From Bacteroidota bacterium (GTDB lineage: Bacteria > Bacteroidota > Bacteroidia > Palsa-965), in assembly GCA_003151415.1 (NCBI GenBank), contig PLXK01000186.1, forward strand, positions 1-36,560: DNA of 36,560 bases. The letters run 5' to 3'. The notes beneath the pieces are model-generated. The model was given only the letters and a program-made list of their open reading frames with translations, was not told where the DNA came from and did not search any database. Below, one piece after another: positions 9,522 through 33,098 of this stretch. How positions within the stretch are numbered: the first letter of the stretch is position 1; each line of letters starts with the position of its first letter. Made by a program: the position numbers and the translations under genes.

Positions 9522-10625
9522 ATGATACCTTCAGCCATTCTGGCTCTACCTCCTGTTAAGAAGGCACTGTTTCACCACCAATTCTCTTTATTAAACATAA
9601 TTGTAGCCGAAGGGGGGAAGGGTGTAGCAAAATTCGTTACAGAACAAGTCGATTTAAACAAAAAAGGGGTCTTGCTTCTTTCTTCAAGCGGCAAACACTC
9701 CTCGGATGGCAAATCCGCAGGCAAGACCAGAACAATTATTGATTTGAAAATAATCAATAACCGTCCGATAGATCTTGACACTTTCTTTCGCACAATGAAT
9801 GCCAAACTGCCAGATGCCGGCATATACATTGGTTGCGTGGAGAGTAATTCAATCCGTAAAGAACGCATCTTCCGGAAATTCGGAAAACCAGCAGCAAAAA
9901 TTGTCTGGGCTTGCGATTTTGTTGTGAACAGGGTGCTGCCCAAACTGGCCATCACCAAAAAAATCTATCACAGCCTTTTTCCCGGGCGAATGCATTTCGT
10001 GTCAAAAGCAGAGGCTCTTGGTCGCTTAAGTTATGCGGGTTTCTCCATCATTGGACATGAACTGATCAATAACAAATTTTATTTTTCCGTGATTAAAGTC
10101 AATGCCCCCCGGTCTGATGTCAAACCTTCCTGCGGGCTTCTATTCAAAATGCCGAGAATCAGTAAAGGAGGAAAAATAATCGGCATTTATAAAATACGGA
10201 CCATGCATCCCTATTCGGAATATTTACAAGATTACGTTGTGAAAATGAATGGATACAACGAAGTTGGCAAACCTAACAAAGATTTCAGGTTAACAAGCTG
10301 GGGAAAGATTATCCGAAAGCTTCATTTGGATGAGCTTCCGCAACTGCTCAATGTGCTCAAAGGAGAGTTAAATTTGGTTGGGGTACGTCCAATAAGCAAG
10401 TTTGGTTTCGAATCTCTGCCGGTTGATTTGCAGCAGGAAAGGATAAAATACAAGACTGGATGTATTCCGCCGAATGTATCGCTGGGTATTACAGGATTTG
10501 ACGGAGTAATTCAGGCCGAAAGAAAATATCTTTCAGAATTAAAAAAACACGGGACAATCATCAATTTCAAATATTTCTGGTTGGCTCTTTACAATATTGC
10601 AATCAGAAAGGAAGAGAGTGCATAA
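9522..10625 (+). CDS. Initiating sugar (phosphoglycosyl) transferase lacking membrane helices
   Basis: This is a 367-residue protein. Residues about 203-365 are a bacterial sugar transferase domain (PF02397, PglC/WcaJ/WbaP catalytic part): GKIIGIYKIRTMHPYSEYLQ, then LDELPQLLNVLKGELNLVGVRP with the expected catalytic Asp-Glu pair at D270-E271. Such enzymes move a sugar-1-phosphate from a UDP-sugar to undecaprenyl phosphate and begin repeat-unit assembly. The N-terminal 190 residues are soluble. They carry the segments LPDAGIYIGCVES and FVSKAEALGRLSYAGFSIIG, which resemble a class I methyltransferase-like scaffold seen in a Bacteroidota subgroup of these transferases. Neither WcaJ-type helices nor a PglC-type re-entrant helix is visible. 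As the first gene of the operon it probably sets the first sugar. Confidence 0.85.
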   Translation: MIPSAILALPPVKKALFHHQFSLLNIIVAEGGKGVAKFVTEQVDLNKKGVLLLSSSGKHSSDGKSAGKTRTIIDLKIINNRPIDLDTFFRTMNAKLPDAGIYIGCVESNSIRKERIFRKFGKPAAKIVWACDFVVNRVLPKLAITKKIYHSLFPGRMHFVSKAEALGRLSYAGFSIIGHELINNKFYFSVIKVNAPRSDVKPSCGLLFKMPRISKGGKIIGIYKIRTMHPYSEYLQDYVVKMNGYNEVGKPNKDFRLTSWGKIIRKLHLDELPQLLNVLKGELNLVGVRPISKFGFESLPVDLQQERIKYKTGCIPPNVSLGITGFDGVIQAERKYLSELKKHGTIINFKYFWLALYNIAIRKEESA

Positions 10626-10744
10626 AGGGTCCACACTTCTTTTGCAAATTTCATATCCTGCCGATAATTACCTGGCAGAGGCGTCAGAATTAGCCAAATC
10701 AATCCTGAACCTTTGTCATTCAAGTTGAAATTAATTTAGAAATT

Positions 10745-11509
10745 ATGAGAAACTGTTTCTTCATTTTGCTTTTTGCCAATTTTCTAACGGCATGTGTCCC
10801 CCATAGCAAAATTGTGTACGTACAATCTTCAACAGATAAAGCAAAGTATGAATATTTTTCAGAAAGCAAAAAGAGCGTCAAAATCGAACCTTTCGATGTC
10901 CTGTATATCAGCATTAACAGCGCCGATGGGGAGCATTCCGGCTATAATTTCTTTAACGAAGATAAACAGCACTACAATTCAGTCTCCGAACTGTCGCTAT
11001 CTGTACTGAGCTACACAGTCAATGATTCAGGGAATATTATCCTGCCGGTTGTCGGCAAAATTAAAATGCAGGACCTAACATTGACCGAAGCGGCCTTGCT
11101 CATTAAAGAAAAAACCAAAAAAGAGATAAGCGATCCCATTGTGTCTGTCAAATTTGTGAATAGTACAGTCACGCTACTCGGAGAGGTTGCAAAACCGGGG
11201 ACCTATGCCTATCAGAACGAAAAATTAACTGTTTTTTATGCGCTCGGAATGGCGGGGGACATTACCGAATATGGCAATCGAAAAAAAGTAGTCCTTATTC
11301 GTGAAAGTAACAATATTGTCCATAAATACTTTCTGGATCTTACACAGGATGCTATTTTTCAATCCGATTTTTATTACCTACGGCCCAATGACGTATTGTA
11401 TGTGGAGCCCTTGAGAATCCGCCGGTTCGGAATGAAAGAGTACCCTTTTGCACTTGTTGCTTCCTTAATTACTTCTGCGCTTCTCGTCCTATTTTATGTA
11501 AAAAAATAA
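10745..11509 (+). CDS. wza: Wza-like polysaccharide export lipoprotein
   Basis: This is a 254-residue protein with a lipoprotein signal: hydrophobic residues 5-14, then LTAC with Cys17 as the lipidated residue. Residues about 48-125 are the Poly_export domain (PF02563: IEPFDVLYISI, GNIILPVVGKIKMQDLTLTEA, IVSVKFVNSTVTLLGEV). An SLBB-like part follows (about 128-215), with KPGTYAYQNEKLTVFYALGMAG. A C-terminal hydrophobic helix (about 231-250) takes the place of the amphipathic helix that lines the outer-membrane pore in E. coli Wza. It likely forms the oligomeric channel that works with the Wzc-like protein, whose gene starts 7 bases later. Confidence 0.9.
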   Translation: MRNCFFILLFANFLTACVPHSKIVYVQSSTDKAKYEYFSESKKSVKIEPFDVLYISINSADGEHSGYNFFNEDKQHYNSVSELSLSVLSYTVNDSGNIILPVVGKIKMQDLTLTEAALLIKEKTKKEISDPIVSVKFVNSTVTLLGEVAKPGTYAYQNEKLTVFYALGMAGDITEYGNRKKVVLIRESNNIVHKYFLDLTQDAIFQSDFYYLRPNDVLYVEPLRIRRFGMKEYPFALVASLITSALLVLFYVKK

Positions 11510-11516
11510 CATTACA

Positions 11517-13880
11517 ATGCACACCGAACAGAATACAGAAAGCTATTACTATGTAAAATCTGCGATACGCACAATCCGGCGGTATTGGTATTTATTCGCG
11601 TTTTCCATAGCCGTTTCCCTGAGTGTTGCTGAATTTCTAAACTGGTATTTTCAACCCGTCTTTGAAGTGGGAAGCACAATTCTCATTGATGAAGACGCAT
11701 CAGGAAATAAGCCCGATGCTTCTCATGAATTCATGAAGTCCTTTTCCATTTTTACGGAAACAAATGATATACAGCTGGAAATATTGAAAATGAAATCGCT
11801 CGATATCATTTATAAGGCTTTGGAAAAAATTCATTCCGAAATAACTTATTTTTCGGGAAATGGCCTAAAAACAAATGAATTGTATACCGACTGCCCTTTT
11901 AAGGTAACCTTCCTGAAGAACCATTGGCAACCTGTCGACGTCCAATTCCGAGTCATCCCGATATCAAAAAGCCGTTTCCGGATTCAGGTGGAAAAAAACA
12001 CAGAGCCTTTGCGCCTGTTCAATTACGAAAACCACAAAACGAGCCTTGTTACCGGCCTGTCACTCAACAAAATCTATACATTCGGCGATACGATTCAATC
12101 CGCATCCTTTTGTTTCCAGGTATCCAAAACACAAGATTCCTTCGGTTACTACCCCAGCGCGGCAAGGTATAATTTCACTTTCAATGATCTGGATTTACTG
12201 GCATACACGTATCAAAAAGAGATCAGCATCGAACAGCTCGCAAAGGACGTGCATGCCGCCAGCATCAAGTTAAAATCAAAAAACGCACAAAAAGGTATCG
12301 ATTTCATTGATGCATTGACCCTGGCCTATTTACAGCGGAATAAAGACAAAAAGAATTTCCTTGCCGGTAATACAATTCAATACCTGGATAATCAATTGAG
12401 CGTTATCGAAGATTCCCTGAATCTGACTGAAAATAAATTACAGGCATTCCGGTCATCCCAAAAAGTTATGGAAATAGGCCCAAAGGCAGATCTGGAGTTT
12501 AAAGGCGCAGGAGATTTGGAAAATCAAAAGGAAGAGCTTCTGGCTAAAACGAATTATTATAACTACGTAATGAAAACATTGGAAAAAGACAAGGATATGA
12601 GTTCCATGCTTGTTCCCTCTTCCATGGGAGTTAATGACAATGTTCTGACAACAATCATCGACGAGTATGTAAAGCTGAACAACGAACGGAACGGTCTCAT
12701 CCAAAACAACCAAACGGCCAGCCATTATTTTCAAACGCTAACGGTTAAAATCAGTAACCAAAAGAACACCCTTTTAGAAAACATCAGATACCTGGTCAAT
12801 ACAAACAATCTGCTGCTAAACTCGATTGAAGACCGTTTGAAGAAAAAAAATGCGCAAATAACCGTCTTACCGGCCATTCAAAGAGAGATGGTTGGGATTG
12901 AAAGAAAATATAAGCTGAATGACAACATTTACAACTACATGCTTCAAAAAAAAGCAGAAGCTGAAGTTGCAAAAGCCTCCAATATTCATGAAAATGATGT
13001 TCTTGAGCCCGCCCGCCTGCTCCAGCCCAAACCTGTTTTCCCAAACAAAGCATTGAATCTGGGACTCGCCATAGTGCTGGGATTCATATTTCCCTTCGCA
13101 GGATTTGGGATGAAGGACTTCATGAATAACACAGTAACCAGTGAGCACGAGATACAGACACGCACCCATATGCCATTTCTGGGAAGAGTCTATCACAAAA
13201 AAGGAAGGAAGAACCAATCCTTATTGACCGATGCACCTAAGTCTGCCGTTTCAGAATCCTTCAGAACTGTCCGTACCAATCTCGAACACTACCTGAACGG
13301 TAAAACCAATCAAATTGTGCTTTTGACTTCAACATTGCCGGCAGAAGGGAAATCTTTTGTGGCATTGAATCTGGCTACAAGCCTGGCCTTATTGGGAAGA
13401 AAAACAATCATGGTCAGTTTCGACATCCGAAAACCGGGTATTTATCCGACATTAAAACTGGATTGTCAACTGGGAATCAGCTCTATTCTTTCCGGACGAG
13501 CCACGCTTGCCGAAACACAGGAGAAAACATCCGTTCCACATCTGGATTTTATTGGCTCCGGACCCGTTCTCTCCAATCCTTCCGAGCTCATCTGTTCTCC
13601 TAACACAGAGGCGCTGCTTTCGGAATTGAAGATGAAATACGATTATGTCATCATTGATACCCCGCCACTGGGGCTGGTTACAGATGCCTTTTTGCTTATG
13701 AAATATGCTGATCTGAAAATATTTGTTATCCGCGAAAAGGTGACTCCGCGGGATCAACTGACCAAACTCCTGAAAGAAATTGAAAACAAGAAAATAGCGC
13801 ATTGTTATTGGATGCTAAACGATGTGGATTCCACCGACAGATACTATGAAAAAAACAGTCAATATTTTTCACAGGACTAA
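11517..13880 (+). CDS. wzc: Wzc-like polysaccharide co-polymerase / BY-type tyrosine kinase
   Basis: This is a 787-residue inner-membrane protein. The Wzz domain at the N-terminus has TM1 at about 24-42. A long periplasmic part follows with predicted coiled coil (about 275-500), and TM2 lies near 511-532. The cytosolic kinase domain holds Walker A STLPAEGKS (605-613), Walker A' FDIRKPG (D636) and Walker B YDYVIIDTPP (D714). In Walker A' the usual first Asp of DxD is Ser634. The C-terminal tyrosine cluster is short (Y776, Y777, Y783). Family members control chain length and couple Wzy polymerisation to Wza export through cycles of autophosphorylation. No cognate tyrosine phosphatase gene is in the window. 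Confidence 0.92.
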   Translation: MHTEQNTESYYYVKSAIRTIRRYWYLFAFSIAVSLSVAEFLNWYFQPVFEVGSTILIDEDASGNKPDASHEFMKSFSIFTETNDIQLEILKMKSLDIIYKALEKIHSEITYFSGNGLKTNELYTDCPFKVTFLKNHWQPVDVQFRVIPISKSRFRIQVEKNTEPLRLFNYENHKTSLVTGLSLNKIYTFGDTIQSASFCFQVSKTQDSFGYYPSAARYNFTFNDLDLLAYTYQKEISIEQLAKDVHAASIKLKSKNAQKGIDFIDALTLAYLQRNKDKKNFLAGNTIQYLDNQLSVIEDSLNLTENKLQAFRSSQKVMEIGPKADLEFKGAGDLENQKEELLAKTNYYNYVMKTLEKDKDMSSMLVPSSMGVNDNVLTTIIDEYVKLNNERNGLIQNNQTASHYFQTLTVKISNQKNTLLENIRYLVNTNNLLLNSIEDRLKKKNAQITVLPAIQREMVGIERKYKLNDNIYNYMLQKKAEAEVAKASNIHENDVLEPARLLQPKPVFPNKALNLGLAIVLGFIFPFAGFGMKDFMNNTVTSEHEIQTRTHMPFLGRVYHKKGRKNQSLLTDAPKSAVSESFRTVRTNLEHYLNGKTNQIVLLTSTLPAEGKSFVALNLATSLALLGRKTIMVSFDIRKPGIYPTLKLDCQLGISSILSGRATLAETQEKTSVPHLDFIGSGPVLSNPSELICSPNTEALLSELKMKYDYVIIDTPPLGLVTDAFLLMKYADLKIFVIREKVTPRDQLTKLLKEIENKKIAHCYWMLNDVDSTDRYYEKNSQYFSQD

Positions 13881-13923
13881 TTCCTGTCGTGGCTTAAAAT
13901 AAAACAACACTAAAGAACCATTG

Positions 13924-15258
13924 ATGCTTCTCAAAAGATATTATTTACGGGGTAATAAGCGATCTGTGAAGGCGGTCAGAAACATTGTGAGTTCACTGGC
14001 CATTAAGGTCATCAGCGTAGCAATCAATCTTGCCTTGGTGCCCTTGACGATAAACTATCTGAGCCCAACAAAGTACGGAGTCTGGCTCACCATCAGTTCC
14101 ATGTTGGGCTGGATCAGTTTCTTCGATATTGGCCTTGGCCATGGTTTGCGAAATAAACTGGCAGAGGCCCTTGCCAAAGAAGAAATGCACAAAGCCAAGT
14201 CATACGTCAGCACTGCTTATTTTTCCATTTCCGTGCTTTGTTGCTTCCTCTTCCTGGTCTTTGTTCTTATAAACCATTACTTGAACTGGAACTCGATTTT
14301 ACATGTACCCAAAGAAATTGATGAGAACCTGAAAGCCATTGCCCTGATACTTTTTTCCATGTTTTCCATCCAATTCATTCTTCAGCTTATCAACAGCATA
14401 CTTTTGAGCAACCAGCAACCTGCCCGGGTTTCTTTTTATAACATGCTGTCCAATCTGATGGTATTGATTGCAATTACTCTTCTGACCAGGTTCACAAAAG
14501 AATCCCTGTTTCACATTGCCTTTGTTTTTTCAATTATCCCCGTGATTGTGTTGGGACTTGTGAACGTTTACTACTTCAGAAACAATTTCAGAAGTTTTTC
14601 ACCCAGCATTCAGAAGATTGATTTTGGTGTTCTTCAGGAGGTACTGGGGTTGGGTGTCAAATTTTTCATTATCCAGATCTCCGTATTGATCTTTTTTCAG
14701 ACAAGCAATTTGCTCATCTGCCGCTACTTTTCCCCTGAATTGGTAACACCTTACAATATCGCCTTCCGTTATTTTGGTGTAATTACCATGCTTTTCAGCA
14801 TCATTACCGCGCCATATTGGTCAGCCTATACCGAAGCCTATGTAAAACAGGATTTTGTTTGGATAAGAACCTCGCTGAAACAATTGTTCAAAATGTGGCT
14901 CATACTTGTTCTTGTAGCTCTGCTGATGCTCCTTTTCTCCAAATACGCCTATCATTACTGGATTGGGGACAAAATACAAATCGACTTCAAGATCTCCCTG
15001 TTTATGATGATCTATACGATTACAATAAGTTTTGGCAATATATACATCATGGTACTCAATGGGATAGGCAAAATCAGAATACAAATGCTCGTGAATCTCA
15101 TTGGCATGCTGCTGTTTATTCCATTGTCGTATTACCTGGCCGTTGTCCTGAAGACGGGAATTGTTGGAATCATTATTTCAACGATCGTCTGCAGCATATA
15201 TGGAACAGCCATAGCCCCATTCGAAGTAAAAAGAATTCTGTTGCGTAACCAAAAATGA
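13924..15258 (+). CDS. wzx: Wzx-like lipid-linked repeat-unit flippase (MOP superfamily)
   Basis: This is a 444-residue protein with 12 or more predicted membrane helices. The conserved beginning SSLAIKVISVAINLALVPLTINYLSPTKYGVWLTI is typical of polysaccharide biosynthesis flippases (PF01943/PF13440). A TTG lies directly before ATG 13924; the ATG is preferred. The expected role is moving undecaprenyl-diphosphate-linked repeat units to the periplasmic face. The gene begins 43 bases after the Wzc-like gene and ends 10 bases before the polymerase. Confidence 0.9.
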   Translation: MLLKRYYLRGNKRSVKAVRNIVSSLAIKVISVAINLALVPLTINYLSPTKYGVWLTISSMLGWISFFDIGLGHGLRNKLAEALAKEEMHKAKSYVSTAYFSISVLCCFLFLVFVLINHYLNWNSILHVPKEIDENLKAIALILFSMFSIQFILQLINSILLSNQQPARVSFYNMLSNLMVLIAITLLTRFTKESLFHIAFVFSIIPVIVLGLVNVYYFRNNFRSFSPSIQKIDFGVLQEVLGLGVKFFIIQISVLIFFQTSNLLICRYFSPELVTPYNIAFRYFGVITMLFSIITAPYWSAYTEAYVKQDFVWIRTSLKQLFKMWLILVLVALLMLLFSKYAYHYWIGDKIQIDFKISLFMMIYTITISFGNIYIMVLNGIGKIRIQMLVNLIGMLLFIPLSYYLAVVLKTGIVGIIISTIVCSIYGTAIAPFEVKRILLRNQK

Positions 15259-15268
15259 AATTCAATTC

Positions 15269-16552
15269 ATGTCCCGAATACTAAAAGCGAAAACCGCTAC
15301 AGATTATTTGCTCGTCGCAGGACTGATTGCCGTCAGCGGATTTCCCTATTTTATGGTTTCCCAGGTCAACTTTTTTTTGCTTTTTGTATTTGCTGCCTTG
15401 GTCTATTTAAAGCGAAGCGTTCCTTTTGAGCCGCAGTTACTGGTGGTTGTTTTTGCCTTTCTTGTAGTGGAAGTGCTCCAGTATTTTGTTCTGCGGGCCG
15501 TCGACCTGGTGACCATTTCCGGAACGGTAATCCGAATGTTTCTCAGCATCTTTATTCTGTGCCTGGTTCGCGGAAAATTCATCACGTATTTTGTCAATAT
15601 CCTTTATGTTCTTTCCCTTATCAGTTTTCTGTTTTTCATTCCATCGCTCTTGTTTCCACCTTTTTTTAATTTTTTCGTTACACACATTTGCCCTATTTTC
15701 AACTCCCCTTTTGCCGACCCGGACGGATTCTATATTGTTTGGCCTACGAACCTTCTTTTTTGCTTTCACGATTGCGTCCTTTCCGAATTCCGGAATCCAG
15801 GTCCTTTCTGGGAACCCGGATTATTTGCCGTGTTCCTTACTCTTGCTTTGCTATTCAATCTGATTTTGGAAAAAAAACTTTGGACCAAAAAAAACATGGT
15901 TTTTATTCTGGCATTAATCAGCACATTTTCCACAGCCGGTTACATTGCGCTTTTTGTTCTTTTGTTTTCGTTTTATATCGTAAACCAAAGCCTGGTAAAA
16001 AAAATAATTTTGAGTCTGCTTATATTACCCGCTCTTCTGACCCTTTATTTCTCTCTCGACTTTCTCAGCACCAAGGTCGAACAAAACATAAACATGGCCG
16101 GATCGACGACCTCTTCGAGATTTGGCAGTGCTCTGATTGACTTTACGGATTTTCTGAAGAGTCCATATATTGGATGGGGCCGCGGCGCCCTGCGTTACGG
16201 AGGAAGAACATTCACCTTCTTTTCGGATGACCAGCACAGAAACAACAGTGTAACCGATGTGCTGGCGACTTATGGGTTGTTTTTATTCCTATTCTATTTT
16301 TATTCTTACTATTCCTCACTCAAGTCATTGTGCCTCACAAACGGATTCAATACGCATTTTGCATTCTACGCTCTCCTGGTCATTCTAATTCTTGGCTTTA
16401 GTCAATCTATCTTTTTGAAACCATTCTTTTACAGCATTCTTTTTTTGCGATTTATTGGCAAAACCAATCAAACCCAAGCTCGTGAGGAACAACACGATAA
16501 GGAGGGCCAAACCGGAGCTGTCACATTGCTCACAACAAACGAATCCGAATGA
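15269..16552 (+). CDS. Wzy-like O-antigen/EPS polymerase
   Basis: This 427-residue protein has about 10-12 hydrophobic segments and a larger periplasmic loop before the last helices. NPGPFWEPGLFAVFLTLALLF (from about residue 173) and the loop SPYIGWGRGALRYGG (about 297-311) resemble the O-antigen ligase/polymerase group (PF04932), in which a large loop carries conserved Arg residues. Polymerase rather than ligase is inferred from the position beside Wzx, Wzc and Wza. Its stop overlaps the next start by four bases (ATGA, 16549-16552), indicating translational coupling. Confidence 0.8.
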   Translation: MSRILKAKTATDYLLVAGLIAVSGFPYFMVSQVNFFLLFVFAALVYLKRSVPFEPQLLVVVFAFLVVEVLQYFVLRAVDLVTISGTVIRMFLSIFILCLVRGKFITYFVNILYVLSLISFLFFIPSLLFPPFFNFFVTHICPIFNSPFADPDGFYIVWPTNLLFCFHDCVLSEFRNPGPFWEPGLFAVFLTLALLFNLILEKKLWTKKNMVFILALISTFSTAGYIALFVLLFSFYIVNQSLVKKIILSLLILPALLTLYFSLDFLSTKVEQNINMAGSTTSSRFGSALIDFTDFLKSPYIGWGRGALRYGGRTFTFFSDDQHRNNSVTDVLATYGLFLFLFYFYSYYSSLKSLCLTNGFNTHFAFYALLVILILGFSQSIFLKPFFYSILFLRFIGKTNQTQAREEQHDKEGQTGAVTLLTTNESE

Positions 16553-17661
16553 AAATATTTATTGATATCGGCCACCCGGCTCATGTGCACTATTTTCGGC
16601 ATTTCACAACAATCATGAAAGAAAAGGGGCACAGCATATACATCACAGCTAGGGACAAGGAAGTCACATTCAGCCTTCTTGATTTTTATAAACTCCCCTT
16701 TGCAAACCGCGGCAAAGGCAAAAAAGGAATTTTAGGGAAGCTCTTCTACATATTTCAGGCCGACCTGTTTCTGATCCGGAAAGCACTTCGGATAAAACCC
16801 GATGTTTTTCTTAGTTTTGGTTCCCCTTATGCAGCGCATACAGCATGGCTGCTCAGAAAACCGCATATTGCATTCGATGACACCGATCACAATGTGTTTG
16901 AACATCTGATGTATGTCGCCTTCACAAAATCGATTTTAACTCCTGCTGTTTATAAAAAAGACTATGGACAAAAGCAGGTACGTTTCAACGGCTTTATGGA
17001 ATTGTGTTCTTTGCATCCGAATCGTTTCACAATTAATTCCGAGGGACTCTCCGAAGCTTTGCAGACGCATAAATCCGGGCTGTATATTATTTTACGCTTC
17101 GTATCCTGGGAAGCCAGCCATGACATCGGGCTATCAGGGCTTTCCATGGCAGAAAAATATGCACTGGTTCGGGAACTCTCAAAGTATGCGGCAGTTATCA
17201 TTTCCTCGGAATCTGTCTTGCCAAATGATTTACAAAAATACGGCTATTCCGTGCATCCAGCCAGGATGCATGATTTGCTGGCCGGAGCACAACTTCTGGT
17301 TAGTGAAAGCCTGACCATGTCGGCAGAATCCGCCTTTCTTGGAACGCCTACCATATGCATCAGCACAGCAAGGGCAGGCACACTGGATGAAGAAGTGAAA
17401 CTGGGTCTGATCGAGCTATTCAGAACAAGTGAGGGGGTCATTGAGCGTGCCATAGAAATAGTCAAAAATCCAGCCATTAAGCCCGCTTTTCGCCTGAAAT
17501 CGGCTACGGTAGTAAAAGAGTTGATCGATGTTACTGCCTTCATGACCTGGTTCGTTGAAAATTACCCCGAAAGCTCAAATGAACTTAAAAGAAACCCTTC
17601 CTACCAGCTCAATTTCAAGAATTCTGCAATTGGATCACCACTGAATTTAACACATAATTAA
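16549..17661 (+). CDS. DUF354 glycosyltransferase-like protein
   Basis: This is a 370-residue soluble protein. The N-terminus MKIFIDIGHPAHVHYFRHF and the later FGSPYAAHTAWLLRKPHIAFDDTDHN are hallmarks of DUF354 (PF04007). That family has a GT-B fold related to UDP-GlcNAc 2-epimerase and MurG-like enzymes. The C-terminal half contains SESLTMSAESAFLGTP (about 252-267), similar to nucleotide-sugar binding segments of GT-B proteins. It likely acts as a cytosolic glycosyltransferase adding a sugar to the lipid-linked repeat unit. It is coupled to the polymerase gene by a four-base overlap and is followed after 7 bases by a deacetylase-like gene. Confidence 0.82.
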   Translation: MKIFIDIGHPAHVHYFRHFTTIMKEKGHSIYITARDKEVTFSLLDFYKLPFANRGKGKKGILGKLFYIFQADLFLIRKALRIKPDVFLSFGSPYAAHTAWLLRKPHIAFDDTDHNVFEHLMYVAFTKSILTPAVYKKDYGQKQVRFNGFMELCSLHPNRFTINSEGLSEALQTHKSGLYIILRFVSWEASHDIGLSGLSMAEKYALVRELSKYAAVIISSESVLPNDLQKYGYSVHPARMHDLLAGAQLLVSESLTMSAESAFLGTPTICISTARAGTLDEEVKLGLIELFRTSEGVIERAIEIVKNPAIKPAFRLKSATVVKELIDVTAFMTWFVENYPESSNELKRNPSYQLNFKNSAIGSPLNLTHN

Positions 17662-17668
17662 ACTTTGT

Positions 17669-18421
17669 ATGAGAGACTTCACCTTATCCGCTTATAAAAC
17701 CCTGCTGACAACCTTAAAGTCCAGAGGGTATCAATTTTTAACCTTTGAACAATTCCTGACAACCACCAAGGGAGGCAAGCAAATCATACTCAGACACGAT
17801 GTGGATGATTTGCCGATAAATTCGCTCAATACGGCCCTCCTGGAAAAAGAGCTTGGAATCAGGTCAAGTTATTATTTCCGTATCGTCAAACAAAGCAACC
17901 ATCCCGAAATTATCCGGACTATTGCCGACTTGAATCACGAGATCGGTTATCATTATGAAGATCTGGCTTTGGCCAAAGGGGATAAAGAACTCGCCCTGAA
18001 ACATTTCATTGAAAATCTCACATATTTCAGGCAATACTACCCCGTCCGAACGATTTGTATGCATGGTAGTCCCATGACAGCGTGGGACAATCGGACACTG
18101 TGGGACAATTATAAGTATACCGATTACGGTGTGATTGGCGAACCTTATTTCGAAACCGATTTTTCAAAATTTCTTTACCTGACCGATACAGGAAGAAGAT
18201 GGAACGGAGCTAAGGTCAGTATCAGAGATAAAGTGCGTTCCAGCAGCAAGCAGGAATACCGGACAACATTTGATATTGTGGAAAACATCGACGAACTCCC
18301 CGATCAAATCATGATAACCACACATCCTCAACGTTGGGAAAACAATCTGTTCCCATGGATGAAGGAACTTGTATTCCAAAATATCAAAAATCAGATCAAG
18401 CGATTGATCGTGAAAAATTAA
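17669..18421 (+). CDS. Polysaccharide deacetylase-like (CE4 superfamily) protein
   Basis: This is a 250-residue protein without a signal peptide. ILRHDVDD (about 40-47) carries the Asp/His metal-binding part of the NodB fold, EIGYHYED (about 91-98) corresponds to the second motif, and ICMHGSP (about 129-135) and TTHPQRW (about 217-223) complete a circle of conserved histidines. It differs from canonical NodB (TFDDGP, HxxxH), like the deacetylase-like proteins found in LPS and capsule loci. Being cytosolic, it may deacetylate a nucleotide- or lipid-linked N-acetyl sugar before polymerisation. It lies between the DUF354 and amidotransferase genes with gaps of 7 and 4 bases. Confidence 0.78.
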   Translation: MRDFTLSAYKTLLTTLKSRGYQFLTFEQFLTTTKGGKQIILRHDVDDLPINSLNTALLEKELGIRSSYYFRIVKQSNHPEIIRTIADLNHEIGYHYEDLALAKGDKELALKHFIENLTYFRQYYPVRTICMHGSPMTAWDNRTLWDNYKYTDYGVIGEPYFETDFSKFLYLTDTGRRWNGAKVSIRDKVRSSSKQEYRTTFDIVENIDELPDQIMITTHPQRWENNLFPWMKELVFQNIKNQIKRLIVKN

Positions 18422-18425
18422 GGTC

Positions 18426-20249
18426 ATGTGTGGAATTGCAGGCATAGTTAATTTTTCAGGCCAACACGTGAATCCCCAAACAATCAGGGCAATGCTTACG
18501 CTCATCAAACATCGTGGCCCTGACGATGAAGGCTTGTTTGTGAAAGAGAACGTCGGTCTTGGGCATGTCCGATTGAGTATCATCGATTTGTCATCAGCCG
18601 GTCATCAGCCGATGCTCAGCTCCGATGAACGTTATTGCGTTGTCTTTAACGGAGAGATTTACAACTACCTGGAAATTAAGTCGGAATTAAAGAGTAAATA
18701 TGCCTTTAAATCAAAGACCGATACAGAAGTTCTACTGGCCGCCTACCAGGAATGGGGTCAGGATTGTTTGTCCAAATTCAATGGCGATTTTGCATTTGTG
18801 ATCTACGATCGTGTTAACCGGAGTCTTTTCGGAGCCAGGGACCGTTTTGGAATAAAACCATTCTATTATAAATTGGATTCCGAAAGGTTTGTTTTTGCTT
18901 CAGAAATAAAGGCGCTCATTCCCTTCGAGGAAAATCTAAAGCCCAATGATAAAACGATTTTTGAATACCTGGTTTATAACCGTACGGACCAATCGGAAGA
19001 AACGTTTTTCAATTCCATTTCAAAACTCAAACATGGTCATTCCTTTACCCTGAGCGACGGCAAATTCACCATACAAAGATGGTATGACCTTTCAAGCAAA
19101 ATACACTACCCTCTTTCATTAAGGCCAGAGGAATTCAGATACGAGCTAACGACATCCATAGGTCTTCGCCTGAGGAGTGATGTTCCAATTGGTGTTTGCC
19201 TGAGCGGCGGGATCGATTCTTCTTCCATCACCTCCATTCTCTATCACGACTTCAACCAGCGCGGGCTGAAAACTTTTTCCGCCACATTTGACAAAAAAGA
19301 TCCGGAAGATGAAAGTGTGTTCATCAACACTTACAAACACCTGCTCACCGAGATGCATTTTGTCAGTCCCACGGCAGACTCCTTTTATAAGGAGTTTTCC
19401 GGATTCATTGAATCGCAGTCCGAGCCCCTTCCGGGAATAAGCCCCTATACCCAGTTTAAAGTGATGCAATTGGCAAAAGGCAATGTCTCGGTGACACTCG
19501 ATGGACAGGGCGCCGATGAAATGCTGGGAGGTTACAATTATTTTTATGGCAGTTATTTCAAGGAATTACTGAAAAATTATCGGTTACTCGCTTTACTGCG
19601 GGAAGCGGGCTCACATTACCGAAAAAATTCATCCAAAGAAGCCTTTTCCTATTTCGCCTATTATTTATTGCCGGTTATGCTTAAAAACTTCTTTGGCCGA
19701 AAGAATGGATGCATTTCCAAAGAATTTTACAAAAATCATTATAAAAAGTCAACCCTTTCGGCTGACCTTTACAATCCGCTGTCCTTGCATGATTTTTTTC
19801 TTCAGCACTTCGAATACAAACTGGAGCACTTGCTAAAATGGGATGACCTGAACTCCATGAGCTTTTCCATAGAGTCGCGGATTCCTTTTCTGGATCACAA
19901 TCTGGTGGAAAAAACCTTGTCCTTACCCTCAGATCGGATCCTTAAAAACGGAGTGAGCAAATACATCCTCAGAGAATCGGTAAAGGACATCCTTCCGGCT
20001 CCGATCTACAACCGCACCGACAAAATAGGATTCGGTACCCCTTCGGATGAATGGCTGAGATCAAAATCGTTTCAGTCTTTCATCCAGAACATGCTCAATT
20101 CCAGAGAATTCGCTAATCGCGGTTATTTCGATGTGGCTGAATGCAAGCAAAAATACCAGATTCACCTTCAAAGAAAAGCCAATTTATCCAAAGACATCTG
20201 GAAATGGATAAATCTGGAAACCTGGTTTCAAAAATTTATCACCCGGTAA
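18426..20249 (+). CDS. asnB: Asparagine synthase (glutamine-hydrolysing) family amidotransferase
   Basis: This is a 607-residue protein. The class II glutamine amidotransferase domain begins with the catalytic Cys2 (MCGIAGI) and continues with KHRGPDDEG and VFNGEIYNYLE. The synthetase domain has the PP-loop SGGIDSSS (about 260-267), GQGADEMLGGY (about 359-369) and ESRIPFLDHNLVE. All catalytic landmarks are intact. AsnB makes asparagine from aspartate with glutamine and ATP. Paralogues inside polysaccharide loci often amidate a sugar carboxyl group (uronamides) instead. The tight linkage to the deacetylase gene (4 bases) favours the sugar-modifying role here, but this is inference. Confidence 0.9.
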   Translation: MCGIAGIVNFSGQHVNPQTIRAMLTLIKHRGPDDEGLFVKENVGLGHVRLSIIDLSSAGHQPMLSSDERYCVVFNGEIYNYLEIKSELKSKYAFKSKTDTEVLLAAYQEWGQDCLSKFNGDFAFVIYDRVNRSLFGARDRFGIKPFYYKLDSERFVFASEIKALIPFEENLKPNDKTIFEYLVYNRTDQSEETFFNSISKLKHGHSFTLSDGKFTIQRWYDLSSKIHYPLSLRPEEFRYELTTSIGLRLRSDVPIGVCLSGGIDSSSITSILYHDFNQRGLKTFSATFDKKDPEDESVFINTYKHLLTEMHFVSPTADSFYKEFSGFIESQSEPLPGISPYTQFKVMQLAKGNVSVTLDGQGADEMLGGYNYFYGSYFKELLKNYRLLALLREAGSHYRKNSSKEAFSYFAYYLLPVMLKNFFGRKNGCISKEFYKNHYKKSTLSADLYNPLSLHDFFLQHFEYKLEHLLKWDDLNSMSFSIESRIPFLDHNLVEKTLSLPSDRILKNGVSKYILRESVKDILPAPIYNRTDKIGFGTPSDEWLRSKSFQSFIQNMLNSREFANRGYFDVAECKQKYQIHLQRKANLSKDIWKWINLETWFQKFITR

Positions 20250-20327
20250 TCAAAATCAGATATTTGAAAACGGGTTATTTTCTCACGTTTGAAAAAAATG
20301 CAAATAAAACATATACTTACATACAGT

Positions 20328-20365
20328 TGGCCCGCATATGCATTGGCCACTTGCACTTCGGGCCA
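20328..20365 (+). repeat. Inverted repeat in the leader of the beta-helix gene
   Basis: TGGCCCG (20328-20334) and CGGGCCA (20359-20365) form a perfect seven-base-pair stem with a 24-base loop that itself contains GGCCA. No T-run follows. It lies in the 165-base gap between asnB and the beta-helix lipoprotein, the largest gap inside the operon. It could be an RNA processing or stability element, or a weak attenuator. Confidence 0.35.
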
Positions 20366-20414
20366 CAGATGGTCTGGGAAGAAAATTGAATTCGTTTCAC
20401 AAAAAACATTGAAC

Positions 20415-21776
20415 ATGAAACATTCACTACTCTTTGTATTTTTGTTTGGCTGCGTTTTCTTACTCCAGTGCCGAAAGGAAAAGCAGCAAAATCCGACCCT
20501 GAATGCTGCGGGCAACCTAAAACAGGGCGGCTTACTGAATAAAACAGTTGTTCTCGTGCCTAACCCGGGGGCGAATCACGATATACAACCTTTCATTCAG
20601 CAGGCAGTGAATAATGCCCGAAACGGCGACGAGATAGATCTGCCCGAAGGTTCATTTACAATAAGCCGAACGATTCAAATAACCAAATTCATCTCCATCC
20701 GGGGGGCCGGGTTATCCAAAACCATTTTATATCGTTCTGAAACCATGCCAGATACGGTTCTTTCAAGTGATGGCGTGAACTGCATTTTCAAATTCCTCAT
20801 CAATTCTTCCACACCAAGCAATATCGTGGTTTCTGATTTGTGCCTGAAAAGTAAAATCCCTAGTGTCACAGCCGGTGACGGGGGATCTCTGGCCTGTGAC
20901 TACGGAATCAAATTCATCAATTGCATTGACTTTGTAATTACCCGCTGCAGGTTCGAAAATTTCGGTGATGCGGCTGTATCCATCCAGCATCCGGACAACT
21001 CAGCCAAGGGACTGGTCTGCAAAAATCAATTTTTTCACAATGTGAAAGGGCCAACCGGCCTTGAGCTGGGGTATGGAGTAGAAGTCTTTGGCGAAAATAA
21101 ACAATGGGTAAATGATGCCCAATTCGGGTCCGCTAATTTTATATTTGTTGAAGACAACACCTTCGATGTTCACCGGCATGCTATTGCCGGAGGGGGCTGC
21201 GGTCTTTATGTCTTCCGGTACAACATCATCATCAATAACAACATCGGAAGGAATTCAGGGCAGGCAATCGATGCACATGAGGCCAGGCAAACACCCGGGG
21301 CCAATTATTACAGTACAAGAGCCGTTGAAATTTACAACAATCAGGTGATCAATACAACATTCGAGGATGGGACGGAAATTGCACCAGGCGGGAGTGCCAA
21401 ATCTCTTGTAGAAAATGCCATCTTAATCCGAGGAGGAGAGGCTCTAATCCATGACAATGAACTCCAGGGATACCGGTTTGGAATAGGGGTCATGAATTTT
21501 GTCGCCACGGGTCTTCAGCAATACCCCGTATTCACTCAGATCGGCTATGCAAGTGGCTTGAATTATGGCCCAAATCACAAAGGAGTGGATTCGAATTATG
21601 GAAATGGCGATTTATTCGCCTGGAACAATTCGTTTACTCCCTATCCGGGTACCGACACCTCCAGCCTTTTCTATAATTATCAACCGGGGTATTTTCAGGA
21701 AGACAGAGACTACCATTTTGTCGCCAAGCCCTCTTATGAACCTTACGTATACCCACATCCCCATTCAAATAAGTAA
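20415..21776 (+). CDS. Right-handed parallel beta-helix lipoprotein
   Basis: ATG 20415 is chosen over the longer frame (open from 20289) because it starts a lipoprotein signal: MKHSLLFVFLFGCVFLLQC, with Cys19 as the lipidation site. This gives 453 residues. After a short linker come about 10-12 irregular beta-helix turns. They begin with NGDEIDLPEGSFTISRTIQI and ISIRGAGLSKTIL, the typical N-cap of pectate-lyase-like folds (PF13229/PF12708 type), and continue with Asn-rich turns such as IINNNIGRNSGQAIDAHEA. Relatives include polysaccharide lyases, C5-epimerases and phage depolymerases, but no catalytic triad can be assigned. The position between asnB and two glycosyltransferases suggests it trims, epimerises or binds the exported polymer at the cell envelope. 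Confidence 0.8.
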   Translation: MKHSLLFVFLFGCVFLLQCRKEKQQNPTLNAAGNLKQGGLLNKTVVLVPNPGANHDIQPFIQQAVNNARNGDEIDLPEGSFTISRTIQITKFISIRGAGLSKTILYRSETMPDTVLSSDGVNCIFKFLINSSTPSNIVVSDLCLKSKIPSVTAGDGGSLACDYGIKFINCIDFVITRCRFENFGDAAVSIQHPDNSAKGLVCKNQFFHNVKGPTGLELGYGVEVFGENKQWVNDAQFGSANFIFVEDNTFDVHRHAIAGGGCGLYVFRYNIIINNNIGRNSGQAIDAHEARQTPGANYYSTRAVEIYNNQVINTTFEDGTEIAPGGSAKSLVENAILIRGGEALIHDNELQGYRFGIGVMNFVATGLQQYPVFTQIGYASGLNYGPNHKGVDSNYGNGDLFAWNNSFTPYPGTDTSSLFYNYQPGYFQEDRDYHFVAKPSYEPYVYPHPHSNK

Positions 21777-21830
21777 AGCTGAGCGCGGAAATATTAAATC
21801 ATATTAAAAACCAAATGCCAATTTCAATTT

Positions 21831-22748
21831 ATGCAGCGTGAAAATCCTGAAAAAAGTATTTGTATACTCATTCCAACATTCAACAGGGTTTCCTATTTAC
21901 GAATACTTTTAGAACAACTCAGAGCACAGGTATGTACGCCTGGTTTTAAATTCATTCCTTTGATCATCGTGGACGGCTCTGCCGACGGCACTTTGGAAAT
22001 GCTTTCTGCCGAATTTCCGTCCGCATCCGTTCTTAGAGGAACGGGGGACTGGTGGTGGACAAAATGCATCAATGAAGGAGCCAAATATGCCATCCAAAAT
22101 CTTTGTCCTGATTATTTACTGCTCATGAATGACGACTCTCAGATACAACCCGGTTATTTGAGTGCGCTGATTGACTCCTCAAAACTGGCCCAAAATGATT
22201 GCATTATCGGAAGCCTTTCAGTAACAGAAAAGACTCCTCACAAGGTAAGTTTCTCCGGAGTAAAGGCCATCAACTGGTTCCTTTTAAAAAAGAAATTGTA
22301 TTTCAAAAGCTTTGAGCTCTTGGAAAATATCCCCTCCACAGGTCTTTTCCCCACCTATGCCTTAAATGGCCGGGGCACACTGATCAGTTCGTCACTTTTT
22401 CAAAAATTGACATTTCTGAATGAGCGCTCGTTCCCTCAATACGGATCAGACGACGACCTCGCTCTGAGGGCCTGGAAAAAAGGACACGGTGTGTATATTT
22501 CCTATTCCTGCAAAATATATGACCGAACCCATGACACGTCAAAAGGAAGCGCTTTCAGGCAGGATGCAATCCCGGTGTTTGTAAAAAGTTTCTTCACCCG
22601 AAATTCGGTCAACTATATCCCGAAACAATTCGTTTTTTTTTATTACCATGGAATCAAAATTCTTATGCCGTTCTATTTAATGAAATTTATTTTAGGTACG
22701 AGCTATGCATATTTTTTTAAATACAAAAAAATGAAATATGAATTATAG
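21831..22748 (+). CDS. Glycosyltransferase family 2 protein
   Basis: This 305-residue protein has a GT-A fold. SICILIPTFNRVSYLRILLEQL lies near the N-terminus, then IIVDGSADGT, and LLMNDDSQIQPGY, where NDDS (about 98-101) is the DxD-like metal and nucleotide-sugar site. The segment RGTGDWWWTKCINEG (about 65-79) and the later GSDDDLALRAWKKGH (about 206-220) are seen in rhamnosyltransferase-like GT2 enzymes of surface polysaccharide clusters. It ends with a hydrophobic stretch that may associate with the membrane. The last 11 bases overlap the next gene. Confidence 0.87.
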   Translation: MQRENPEKSICILIPTFNRVSYLRILLEQLRAQVCTPGFKFIPLIIVDGSADGTLEMLSAEFPSASVLRGTGDWWWTKCINEGAKYAIQNLCPDYLLLMNDDSQIQPGYLSALIDSSKLAQNDCIIGSLSVTEKTPHKVSFSGVKAINWFLLKKKLYFKSFELLENIPSTGLFPTYALNGRGTLISSSLFQKLTFLNERSFPQYGSDDDLALRAWKKGHGVYISYSCKIYDRTHDTSKGSAFRQDAIPVFVKSFFTRNSVNYIPKQFVFFYYHGIKILMPFYLMKFILGTSYAYFFKYKKMKYEL

Positions 22749-23598
22749 CATCATTACTCCAACACGTGATGAAGGGAAGTACATAGAGGAAACGATCAGG
22801 TCGGTCATTTCCCAGACGATTTTGCCAACAGAATGGTTTATCCTGGATGATGACTCAAAAGACAACACGGGCTTCATTGTGAACAAATATCTCAGTAATT
22901 ATCCCTTCATCAGGTACATCAAACTGAATGATTTCCGCAATGATCTGACAAACACAGGGGGCCGTGTTGCCGCTATAATCAATTATGCAGAAAGCCTGTT
23001 TTCAAAAACGACAGACCTTTTGGCAAAAATAGATGCAGATACCAGTTTTGAACCCGATTTCTTTGGCCGAACCCTGAATGAATTCATGAAAGATCCCACT
23101 CTTGGAATTGCATCAGGTCACCTTGTCGAAAACGGCGTTCCCGAAAAGGTAAAAGATTGGACCAGTGGAAGGGGTGCCTGCCTGATCATAAGGCATACGT
23201 GTTTCATTCAAATAGGCAAGTTTTTTGAGTCAAAGACCCGGGGCGAAGACGTTCTGGCTTTTGTTGCGGTCAGGGCAATCGGTTACAAAACGCGCACTTT
23301 TGATTTTCATTTCAATCATTTAAAACCTGAAGGTATTCGAAAATCAAGGCTAAAAAATCACTATGTCACTGGATTTTACAAGGGCTCCATTCCCTATTGG
23401 CTACCTTTTTTCCTGGCCAATATGTTGAGGGACTTATTTAAAAGACCTTATTTCATCGGAGCCTTCGTTCAGTTTTATTCCTATTGCCTATCCCGCTTTT
23501 TTCTCCGATACAAACCTTTTCCGGATTTTGTTTCTTTCCAGTTGTGCAAGGAGCAAAAGATGAAAATGCGAAAGAGGATAGGCTTTAAAAACACCTGA
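22738..23598 (+). CDS. Glycosyltransferase family 2 protein
   Basis: This 286-residue GT-A protein begins with YSIITPTRDEGKYIEETIRSV. WFILDDDSKDNT is the nucleotide-binding acidic motif, and LLAKIDADTSFEPDFF (about 96-111) contains the DxD motif D-A-D. A hydrophobic part near 220-250 may contact the membrane. It starts inside the preceding GT2 gene (11-base overlap), so the two are translationally coupled and probably act in sequence on the same repeat unit. Confidence 0.87.
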   Translation: MNYSIITPTRDEGKYIEETIRSVISQTILPTEWFILDDDSKDNTGFIVNKYLSNYPFIRYIKLNDFRNDLTNTGGRVAAIINYAESLFSKTTDLLAKIDADTSFEPDFFGRTLNEFMKDPTLGIASGHLVENGVPEKVKDWTSGRGACLIIRHTCFIQIGKFFESKTRGEDVLAFVAVRAIGYKTRTFDFHFNHLKPEGIRKSRLKNHYVTGFYKGSIPYWLPFFLANMLRDLFKRPYFIGAFVQFYSYCLSRFFLRYKPFPDFVSFQLCKEQKMKMRKRIGFKNT

Positions 23599-23683
23599 AT
23601 TCCGAACCTCGATTCACAATGAAATTCAATTCGGTATCTTGCTAAACCTCAAAAACATCCATTTTCTTTTAGAACAAACGATT

Positions 23684-24424
23684 ATGAATTTGTACTTCAA
23701 AATAAAGAGAGCCATTGCCTGCTTTCTGATTCAGGAAAAAATAAAGACAAAATTAGACGAACCACTTATTTCCTTTTCCTTTGACGATGCTCCCAATTCT
23801 GCTTTTGTGGCAGGCCGCAGCATTCTGAATAAATATGGATACAAAGCAACCTATTACATTTCTTTAGGAATCCGCGAGCAAGACAATCCGCAAAAAGGAT
23901 ATTTTGAAACGGCCCACCTCAAAGAAGTGATTGCGGAAGGCGGGGAACTGGCTTGTCACACGTATAGCCATATCCATTTTTATACTTCATCCATAAAAAG
24001 TCTCCAAAACGATTTGGAGGAAAACCAAAGAAAACTGAATGAAATATTACCGGAATATCGTTTTTCCAATTTTTCTTACCCTTACGGAGAACAGACCATA
24101 TCCGGCAAAGTCCTTGTTCGCTCCAAATTCAGAAGCGCCCGGAGTGTAAAGGCCGGAATCAATTCCAATCCGGTCGACTTGAATAACCTCAGGGCCTTGC
24201 AGCTGGAGAAAAGCCTGACATTGGAAAAAGCTTTTGAGTATATCGATCAAACCATTGCACAAAAAGGCTGGCTGATCTTTTATTCTCATGACATACAGGA
24301 CGATTGTTCATCCTGGGGTTGCACCCCTTCCTTTTTTGAACAGGTTGTTAAATATTGTTCCGATAGAAAACTCAACGTGCGCACAATTGATCAGGGTCTC
24401 GATCTGCTGAAGGTGCGCAAATAA
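23684..24424 (+). CDS. NodB-type polysaccharide deacetylase (CE4)
   Basis: The frame is open from a TTG at 23639, but ATG 23684 is the likelier start and gives 246 residues. The CE4 motifs are visible in order. SFSFDDAP (about 29-36) is motif 1 with both Asp. CHTYSH (about 91-96) is the HxxxH metal pair. FSYPYGEQT (about 125-133) is motif 3, with Tyr-Pro in place of the common Arg-Pro-Pro. YSHDI (about 200-204) is the last His motif. Gly of FDDGP is replaced by Ala. No signal peptide is visible, so it probably acts inside the cell or at the inner face. It would remove N- or O-acetyl groups from sugars and is the second deacetylase-like gene of the locus. Confidence 0.83.
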   Translation: MNLYFKIKRAIACFLIQEKIKTKLDEPLISFSFDDAPNSAFVAGRSILNKYGYKATYYISLGIREQDNPQKGYFETAHLKEVIAEGGELACHTYSHIHFYTSSIKSLQNDLEENQRKLNEILPEYRFSNFSYPYGEQTISGKVLVRSKFRSARSVKAGINSNPVDLNNLRALQLEKSLTLEKAFEYIDQTIAQKGWLIFYSHDIQDDCSSWGCTPSFFEQVVKYCSDRKLNVRTIDQGLDLLKVRK

Positions 24425-24460
24425 ATAATTTCGGCCAAATACCATGAACTGCTAATTTAT

Positions 24461-24468
24461 TACATTTG
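24461..24468 (+). promoter_or_regulatory. -7 promoter element (TACATTTG) upstream of the DUF4184 gene
   Basis: This is an exact TAnnTTTG located 50 bases before ATG 24518, in the 93-base gap after the deacetylase gene. No TTG -33 element is seen at the right spacing. It may give the last gene of the locus a promoter of its own. Confidence 0.35.
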
Positions 24469-24517
24469 ACTTTTATGTTAACGCCTAGTTTTTTTCCGGC
24501 AACTTTTAAATTCAATT

Positions 24518-25270
24518 ATGGGCTTTACCCTTTCACACCCCGCTTTGATATTGCCCTTGCGTTACCTGCCCCGGCGGTTTTACTCCATCAGTGGGCTCAT
24601 TGCCGGAAGCATCATACCCGACTTCGAATATTTCATCCGTTTTAGTCATATCAGCCTTTTCAGTCACACCCTCTCCGGACTATTCTGGTTTGATGTTCCA
24701 TCGGCCTTTCTTCTTTTATTTTTTTATCATCAATTTGTTCGTGATGCATTCATTGCCAATCTTCCTGATTTCCTGAAATTCCGTCTCGGGAATTACGACT
24801 CATTCAATTGGCCGATTTACGCAAGACGGAACTGGCACATCGTGCTGATTTCCATTTTCATTGGCATTTTCAGTCATTTGTTTTGGGATAGCTGGACATC
24901 TGAAAATGGTTGTTTTGTAGAAAGATATCCGCTATTGTTGCAACCTTTCCATTTCGCCAACGTTCGAATTTTATTTTATCAGATCATTAAACAATTGAGT
25001 TCTGCATCCGGGGCCCTGATTATTTCCTGGCAACTGTTTCGCTTGCCCAAACGCATCTCTTCTGAAAACCGAAAGAACAAACAGTATTGGCCATTTTTTT
25101 TCTGTCTTTTTTTCGGTATAATTTTACTTCAAATCCTGATTGGATTCCCAGACAAATCCTTCAGTTGTGTAGTTAAAAAATTCCTCGCAAGCGCCCTGGC
25201 CTCCCTGGCTCTTGTTTCACTGCCTTTTCAGAGGAAACGAACAAATCCTTATAAGACGCACTCCTTATAA
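24518..25270 (+). CDS. DUF4184 family membrane protein
   Basis: This 250-residue protein begins MGFTLSHPALILPL and contains GLIAGSIIPDFEYFIRF, SHTLSGLFWFDVP and IGIFSHLFWDSWTSENG. These His/Asp-rich loops between hydrophobic helices are characteristic of DUF4184 (PF13803), an uncharacterised integral membrane family. About six membrane segments are visible. The conserved loop His and Asp residues resemble the metal site of distant membrane hydrolases (YdjM-like), so an enzymatic role is possible but unproven. It is the last gene before a terminator and may or may not serve polysaccharide assembly. Confidence 0.75.
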   Translation: MGFTLSHPALILPLRYLPRRFYSISGLIAGSIIPDFEYFIRFSHISLFSHTLSGLFWFDVPSAFLLLFFYHQFVRDAFIANLPDFLKFRLGNYDSFNWPIYARRNWHIVLISIFIGIFSHLFWDSWTSENGCFVERYPLLLQPFHFANVRILFYQIIKQLSSASGALIISWQLFRLPKRISSENRKNKQYWPFFFCLFFGIILLQILIGFPDKSFSCVVKKFLASALASLALVSLPFQRKRTNPYKTHSL

Positions 25271-28342: not shown

Positions 28343-28559
28343 TTTAATAGTGTTAAAATGCGTGAGTATCCCTTGGAAATACCGCACCGGTTAAACAGAA
28401 AATATCGTGATTGAAGAGTTAAGATAGGAAAAATTGCCGGACAAACAAGACAAGGCCAAATTTATCCTGATTTTGGATGCCAGGATTGGCTTCGCTCTTA
28501 TGCAAAGAAGCCCGCGTGAAGTCTGTTCAGTTTCTTGGTTTCAGAAAATCATTCCATCC

Positions 28560-33029: not shown

Positions 33030-33098
33030 TTCCTTAAAATAGGGTTGCTTTATTTTATCGGGGAGAACGATGCTTCCCCACTCTTCCAATCATCCTAC

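Follow-up and report, generated by a model that had tools for sequence, protein, structure and literature searches.

Gene content of the locus

The window analyzed here, i.e., the whole stretch of 36,560 nucleotides of contig PLXK01000186.1 from Bacteroidota bacterium (GCA_003151415.1; GTDB lineage Palsa-965), contains three genes arranged head to tail on the plus strand that encode a DUF354 protein, a deacetylase-like protein and an AsnB-like glutamine amidotransferase (Table 1). These genes are located mid-way in an operon-like run of 13 genes (9522–25270) of the Wzx/Wzy exopolysaccharide type. We hold with moderate confidence that the three genes provide this operon with a cytoplasmic module for sugar tailoring, comparable to the late part of the Wbp/Vim pathway of P. 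gingivalis but lacking the VimA step.

An earlier reading of the letters alone (hereafter, the sequence-only reading) had described gaps of 7 and 4 bases between the three genes and an overlap of the first with the polymerase gene, and the coordinates of the open reading frames (ORFs) confirm this description, the overlap with the Wzy-like ORF being 4 bases. The entire operon is packed, however, with all 12 gaps in the range from -11 to 119 bases, so that the tight spacing of the trio alone proves little; packing, being a property of the whole operon, was dropped as an indication of function.

Conservation of the gene neighborhood

A scan of contigs with the deacetylase yielded 34 loci (L008–L041), in 25 of which a DUF354 gene is found within 10 kb (adjoining, on the same strand, in 16), and in 23 of which a FemAB or ATP-grasp gene is found within the same distance; counts within these loci are not independent of the models, alignment A2 having been built from the DUF354 genes near the deacetylase gene, while the neighbors in the same loci supplied the models of FemAB, ATP-grasp and hexapeptide proteins. 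The phylum sample of 395 genomes, from which loci L043–L057 come, was searched with thresholds of E≤1e-20 for the deacetylase and E≤1e-10 for DUF354. The deacetylase is present in 16 of these genomes, DUF354 in 31, and both in 14 (Fisher p 1.4e-15); with the window genome left out, both are present in 13 of the 15 deacetylase genomes (p 1.6e-14), and in each of the 13, the two genes occur on the same strand of a single contig, at distances of 5 to 5888 bases. The deacetylase was also detected in 4 of 5 and in 39 of 61 Porphyromonadaceae-like genomes.

These observations bear on an alternative under which the DUF354 protein and the deacetylase act on one amino sugar, often re-acylated elsewhere, the AsnB-like protein amidates another residue of the same polymer, and the trio reflects operon neighborhood. 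The pair indeed has a much broader distribution than the trio, and in the phylum sample, none of the 15 other genomes with the deacetylase has an AsnB gene next to that of the deacetylase (neighbor counts cover 13 of the 15 loci; L049 and L056, for which no separate deacetylase ORF was called, were left out). In genome G109, an AsnB gene is located about 6.7 kb away, G123 and G066 contain weak AsnB-like matches no more than 6 kb away, and those in loci L046 and L047 are weak as well, at about 50 bits. The distribution of the AsnB subtype itself argues against separate residues. In the class sample of 395 genomes, AsnB was detected in 11 at a threshold of E≤1e-112, and 8 of the 11, the window genome included, encode a protein with at least 48% identity to that of the window. 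In 6 of these 8 genomes, which span three families (four of the window genus, G480 and G655), the gene is separated by no more than about 4 kb from the deacetylase and the DUF354 genes alike, and the three genes occur in two different arrangements. The AsnB gene of G549 is located on a contig of 4.4 kb, too short to judge its neighbors, and the proteins with 39–43% identity (G550, G012, G516) have neither a deacetylase nor a DUF354 gene nearby. Taken with this distribution, action on separate residues is a tentative possibility.

Among the relatives of the window genome, the deacetylase is present in all 3 other genomes of the genus, in none of the 8 that represent other genera of the same family, and in 2 of the 47 remaining genomes of the list (G480 and G489). 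The order DUF354–deacetylase–AsnB and the flanking operon, including the adjacent Wzy-like gene, are retained in all 3 other genomes of the genus (G458, G459, G460). In G480, a member of another family, the order is HDVD-type deacetylase, DUF354, FemAB, DUF354, deacetylase, AsnB, MBOAT, an unnamed ORF, an HfsH-like gene and DUF4184. The trio of this genome is 60–65% identical to that of the window, close to the level within the genus (61–70%), and no homolog of Wzx, Wzy, Wza or Wzc was detected in the 14.6 kb examined, which suggests that the tailoring module moves as a unit. In G655, from a third family, the genes for a GT4 glycosyltransferase, AsnB, FemAB, DUF354, a WecB-type epimerase and the deacetylase are contiguous on one strand. 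The deacetylase of G655 is far from that of the window in a tree of 34 rows, so that the grouping of AsnB with the other two genes is probably not merely due to common descent of a single locus.

Thus, the widely conserved core is the pair of DUF354 and deacetylase genes, to which AsnB is added in the genus and in two further families; we rejected the idea that all three form a universal unit. Co-occurrence, which the sequence-only reading had named as a check, is not random.

Two gene sets in these neighborhoods merit separate mention. The HDVD-type deacetylase that opens the G480 cluster (L108:13658-14512) has a weak WbmS-like Pfam match (3.4e-5) that is under the cut-off. In G009 (L057:6790-11543), a distant relative of the deacetylase is encoded with a DegT aminotransferase, a FemAB-like protein, a radical SAM/SPASM protein and a hexapeptide transferase, a set that resembles the Wbp/Vim type with a radical SAM step.

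Predicted functions of the three proteins

The DUF354 protein matches PF04007 with an E-value of 1.1e-12 (48.1 bits versus a cut-off of 22), and its structural model (predicted local distance difference test score, pLDDT, 89.3) adopts the GT-B fold; for this protein and the deacetylase alike, sequence searches against solved structures give weak matches only. The closest folds are the non-hydrolysing UDP-GlcNAc 2-epimerase 3ot5 (Z 27.8, root mean square deviation, rmsd, 3.4, 331 aligned) and the UDP-GlcNAc3NAcA 2-epimerase 8sxy (Z 27.2), whereas glycosyltransferases score around 22 (1rrv, 22.4; PglA 8dqd, 21.9; MurG 1nlm, 21.6); the hhalign comparison with MurG is weak, covering about 100 columns only, with the probability of 48. 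This ranking favors the alternative that the protein, with a fold like that of UDP-GlcNAc 2-epimerase, acts on sugar nucleotides as an epimerase or hydrolase and so makes the substrate of the deacetylase, a role that would be compatible with the functions proposed here for the other two genes. Most positions that do not vary among the epimerases (R18, D111, H220 and others, numbered as in A5) carry other residues, however, in a rough profile alignment with the hhalign probability of only 35, and a separate WecB-type epimerase gene is found beside the DUF354 gene in several loci of relatives (L055, L056, L124). Consequently, these comparisons favor a putative glycosyltransferase, and we consider an epimerase unlikely. 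In its remarks on DUF354, a 2015 study likewise predicts a glycosyltransferase in which few catalytic residues are kept, and terms the function obscure (PMC4520260). Among the papers listed by a search of a single literature library on DUF354, mostly unrelated by title, we found no assigned function for the family and, also in combination with polysaccharide, no link of the kind described here.

No Pfam model matches the deacetylase at E≤0.01, hence neither PF01522 nor the WbmS-like PF22537 does; a weak match to a PdaB-type NCBIfam model was detected (E 4.2e-4). An AlphaFold2 model built from 26 sequences has a pLDDT of 93.2, and a Foldseek search started with this model identifies CE4 proteins in the top rows (E 4.7e-5). 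Structural alignment with VIA-align gives Z 13.1 for PplD (6dq3; rmsd 3.4, 176 aligned), 12.8 for Bordetella WbmS (3hft; rmsd 4.1, 182 aligned, 12% identity) and 12.4 for IcaB (4wcj; rmsd 3.3, 175 aligned). The scores for PplD, WbmS, IcaB, BC0361 and PgaB range from 13.1 to 12.2, so that the top CE4 matches are tied. Judging from the model, the protein is a predicted divergent CE4-fold deacetylase. The metal site of CE4 enzymes consists of Asp-His-His, with the HxxxH signature in motif 2. The residues conserved in the alignment are H43, D44, D46, H95, H132 and H219, and the HDVD motif together with the three other histidines looks like a metal site. H95 is invariant, yet the residue at position +4 is not a histidine (YHYEDL), i.e., the second histidine of motif 2 that is canonical for CE4 is absent. 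The sequence-only reading had noted the absence of a signal peptide, and none is visible by eye, which suggests that the deacetylase works in the cytoplasm, ahead of flipping.

The AsnB-like protein retains Cys2, NGE and the PP-loop SGGIDSS, the landmarks of the glutaminase and ATP-pyrophosphatase domains. The statement that it carries every catalytic landmark nevertheless goes too far, as TTIR and GEGSDE, both present in E. coli AsnB, are missing: PGISPYT is followed by an alignment gap, and GEGSDE is replaced by GQGADE. The TTIR segment has a known role in E. coli AsnB. All 8 sequences of the subtype (the window, G458, G459, G460, G480, G505, G549 and G655) contain GQGADE and lack TTIR, whereas a paralog of 541 amino acids (aa) from the same genome, encoded on contig C94, has TTIR and GEGADE. 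In human ASNS, the conserved Glu-364 is required, and the E364Q variant is inactive with aspartate (PMC6748925); from the residues named around it, we infer that Glu-364 is the Glu of the GEGSDE motif. Taken together, these features indicate that the AsnB-like protein very likely amidates a carboxylate other than that of aspartate. The contrary reading, that it is an ordinary asparagine synthetase or a polymer-unrelated amidotransferase present in the operon by chance, has in its favor that the protein passes the cut-off of the asparagine synthase equivalog TIGR01536 (435.8 versus 267.1 bits) but, given the altered motifs, the intact paralog, and the fact that the gene is retained in the polysaccharide operon throughout the genus and accompanied by the same partners in two further families, is very improbable. 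Asparagine synthesis was rejected on the motifs.

Pfam Asn_synthase matches are found on six contigs of this genome. Apart from the window gene, AsnB-like proteins are encoded on contigs C106, C171, C239, C49 and C94, and four of these five lack TTIR and GEGSDE/GEGADE. A set of AsnB homologs is probably misnamed as asparagine synthases.

Precursor supply and the proposed pathway

The genome of the window (G000; an assembly of 4.31 Mb in 268 contigs, 84.5% complete) encodes two nucleotide-sugar dehydrogenases that pass the cut-off of TIGR03026, one UDP-glucose dehydrogenase-like (contig C218) and the other TviB-like, i.e., similar to UDP-GlcNAc 6-dehydrogenase (contig C15). Close to the TviB-like gene, there are genes for a TviC-like 4-epimerase, an RmlB-like dehydratase and a Gfo/Idh oxidoreductase. 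On the basis of the TviB/TviC-like genes, UDP-GlcNAcA and UDP-GalNAcA, which carry an N-acetyl group as well as a carboxylate, the two groups on which the trio would act, are plausible precursors.

The analysis shows the gene order and its conservation, the folds of the models, the signatures of the active sites and a candidate pathway for the precursor; the substrates, the order of the steps and the action of all three proteins on one residue we infer as follows. The substrate would be a 2-acetamido-uronic acid (UDP-GlcNAcA or UDP-GalNAcA, or a lipid-linked form), probably supplied by the TviB/TviC-like enzymes, whose genes are on another contig. The CE4-fold protein would remove the N-acetyl group, and the AsnB-like protein, with glutamine and ATP, would convert the C6 carboxylate to an amide. 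The DUF354 protein would handle the same sugar, most likely as a glycosyltransferase that loads the undecaprenyl-PP-linked repeat unit ahead of the flip by Wzx.

Several observations weigh against this scheme. Among the 34 deacetylase loci, an AsnB gene is found within 10 kb in only five and adjoins in one (L008, from the same genus). In G505, a 49%-identical AsnB is encoded with neither DUF354 nor the deacetylase in 14.9 kb. The nearest folds of the DUF354 protein are epimerases. The AsnB-like protein scores 365.4 bits against TIGR03108 (eps_aminotran_1), under the cut-off of 816.9, and hence is said here to work like WbpS, not to be WbpS. The TviB-like protein, at 482.3 bits, is under its equivalog cut-off of 592 and is encoded on a contig other than that of the trio. 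Finally, no VimA-like FemAB protein was detected in this 84.5% complete genome at E≤0.001 with a model that does match in G395, so the analogy with Vim is incomplete. FemAB genes are present near relatives of the deacetylase in L043, L045 and L053, as well as in G480 and G655. Given that no FemAB was detected in the window genome, the amine might be left unmodified, or an enzyme that was not recognised might acylate it.

A bolder extension of the proposal, which we regard as a long shot, is that the module makes a linking sugar for type IX secretion, the deacetylase exposing a free amine on an amino-uronamide to which the sortase joins the C-termini of cargo proteins directly, bypassing the VimA aminoacyl step; DUF354 would then be the glycosyltransferase for such linking sugars across Bacteroidota.

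The sequence-only reading is largely upheld, its sugar-modification cassette becoming a putative tailoring module that probably acts before export, but a uronamide combined with de-N-acetylation is not new, pathways of the Wbp/Vim and WbpS type having been published. The link to DUF354 is what we did not find in print in the library searched. The close association of this family with that of the CE4-fold deacetylase, and with enzymes of the FemAB, ATP-grasp or AsnB type, gives it a testable role, the production of amino-sugar derivatives for surface glycans.

Comparison with known systems

The Wbp/Vim pathway of P. gingivalis, as outlined in PMC7468200, includes VimE (a putative 2-N-deacetylase), the VimA aminoacyl transferase and the amidotransferase WbpS/PGN_1234, which converts the uronic acid to the uronamide; the WbpS mutant lacks the uronamide. 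The window module is similar in combining a CE4-type deacetylase with an AsnB-like amidotransferase for what would be an amino-uronic acid, a VimE-like role being proposed for the former, and in the presence of FemAB (VimA-like) genes in the clusters of the relatives G480 and G655. It differs in that no FemAB was found in the window genome, in the presence of DUF354, and in that the surrounding operon is of the Wzx/Wzy exopolysaccharide type; the 2,3-diamino steps (WbpB/D/E) are not established for this genome.

WbpS from P. aeruginosa O6 and WbqG from E. coli O121 are described as uronamide-forming amidotransferases in PMC7468200 and PMC3684757, and PMC7468200 gives TIGR03108 as the family of WbpS, from conserved-domain matches and not from the cut-off. 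As in these cases, the AsnB-like protein with its glutaminase and PP-loop is encoded in a polysaccharide cluster, and TviB/TviC-like enzymes are present in the genome. Unlike WbpS and WbqG, the window protein is under the TIGR03108 cut-off, and a dedicated deacetylase gene adjoins.

Like WbmS from the Bordetella O-antigen locus, the window deacetylase combines the CE4 fold with location in a surface-polysaccharide locus; it differs in the lack of a PF22537 match and in the low identity, and other CE4 structures score equally. Bordetella WbmE is an amidation gene. A literature search on WbmS as a deacetylase found nothing relevant.

In XrtA/PEP-CTERM exopolysaccharide clusters, the same kinds of enzymes are grouped, namely FemAB, a deacetylase and a TIGR03108 amidotransferase, as follows from the NCBIfam names and from PMC7468200, where VimA-like genes are noted alongside those for deacetylases and asparagine synthases in an account of these clusters that does not name DUF354. 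The subfamilies are different, as the TIGR03108 score of the AsnB-like protein of the window illustrates (365 versus a cut-off of 817), and the window encodes proteins with type IX secretion tails.

Other features of the window

The other genes of the run are listed in Table 1.

Table 1. Genes of the operon-like run and other features of the window
Coordinates	Strand	Product	Evidence
3480–4679		protein with type IX secretion tail	Por_Secre_tail
9522–10625	+	initiating sugar-phosphate transferase (bacterial sugar transferase family)	PF02397 E 4e-23
10745–11509	+	Wza-like polysaccharide export protein	PF02563 E 1.1e-13
11517–13880	+	Wzc-like chain-length regulator/tyrosine kinase	TIGR01007 138.5 bits, cut-off 108.05 passed
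13921–15258	+	Wzx-like flippase	MatE E 1.9e-7
15269–16552	+	Wzy-like polymerase	Wzy_C E 5.1e-4, 20.3 bits, under cut-off 31.7
16549–17661	+	DUF354 protein, 370 aa, GT-B fold; probable glycosyltransferase or sugar-nucleotide enzyme	PF04007, model
17669–18421	+	predicted divergent CE4-fold de-N-acetylase, 250 aa, RHDVDD motif; VimE/WbmS-like role proposed	model
18426–20249	+	AsnB-like glutamine amidotransferase, 607 aa; WbpS-like role (uronic acid to uronamide) proposed	TIGR01536
20289–21776	+	right-handed beta-helix protein	weak PF12708/PF13229 matches under cut-off
21831–22748	+	GT2 glycosyltransferase	PF00535 E 2.9e-14
22738–23598	+	GT2 glycosyltransferase	PF00535 E 5.2e-17
23639–24424	+	second deacetylase, HfsH-like	HfsH model E 7.4e-52, 176.5 bits (under cut-off 400); PF01522 E 2.3e-16
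24518–25270		DUF4184 membrane protein	
26963–28387		GH25 lysozyme-like protein with type IX secretion tail	Por_Secre_tail
30258–33089	-	very large ORF, resembling a hybrid sensor kinase with receiver domain	read by eye
33099–36560	-	very large ORF, resembling a hybrid sensor kinase with receiver domain	read by eye

The gene for the beta-helix protein is also found downstream of AsnB in loci L107 and L109. With the HfsH-like gene, a single polysaccharide cluster encodes two deacetylases of different families. An HfsH-like gene is also located 3' of the trio in G480, where Wzx and Wzy were not found, and the DUF4184 gene that follows it here adjoins HfsH in G480 (L108) and in G458 (L110) too. 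The two proteins with type IX secretion tails are encoded on either side of the run. Downstream of the operon, the two very large ORFs are arranged head to tail on the minus strand.

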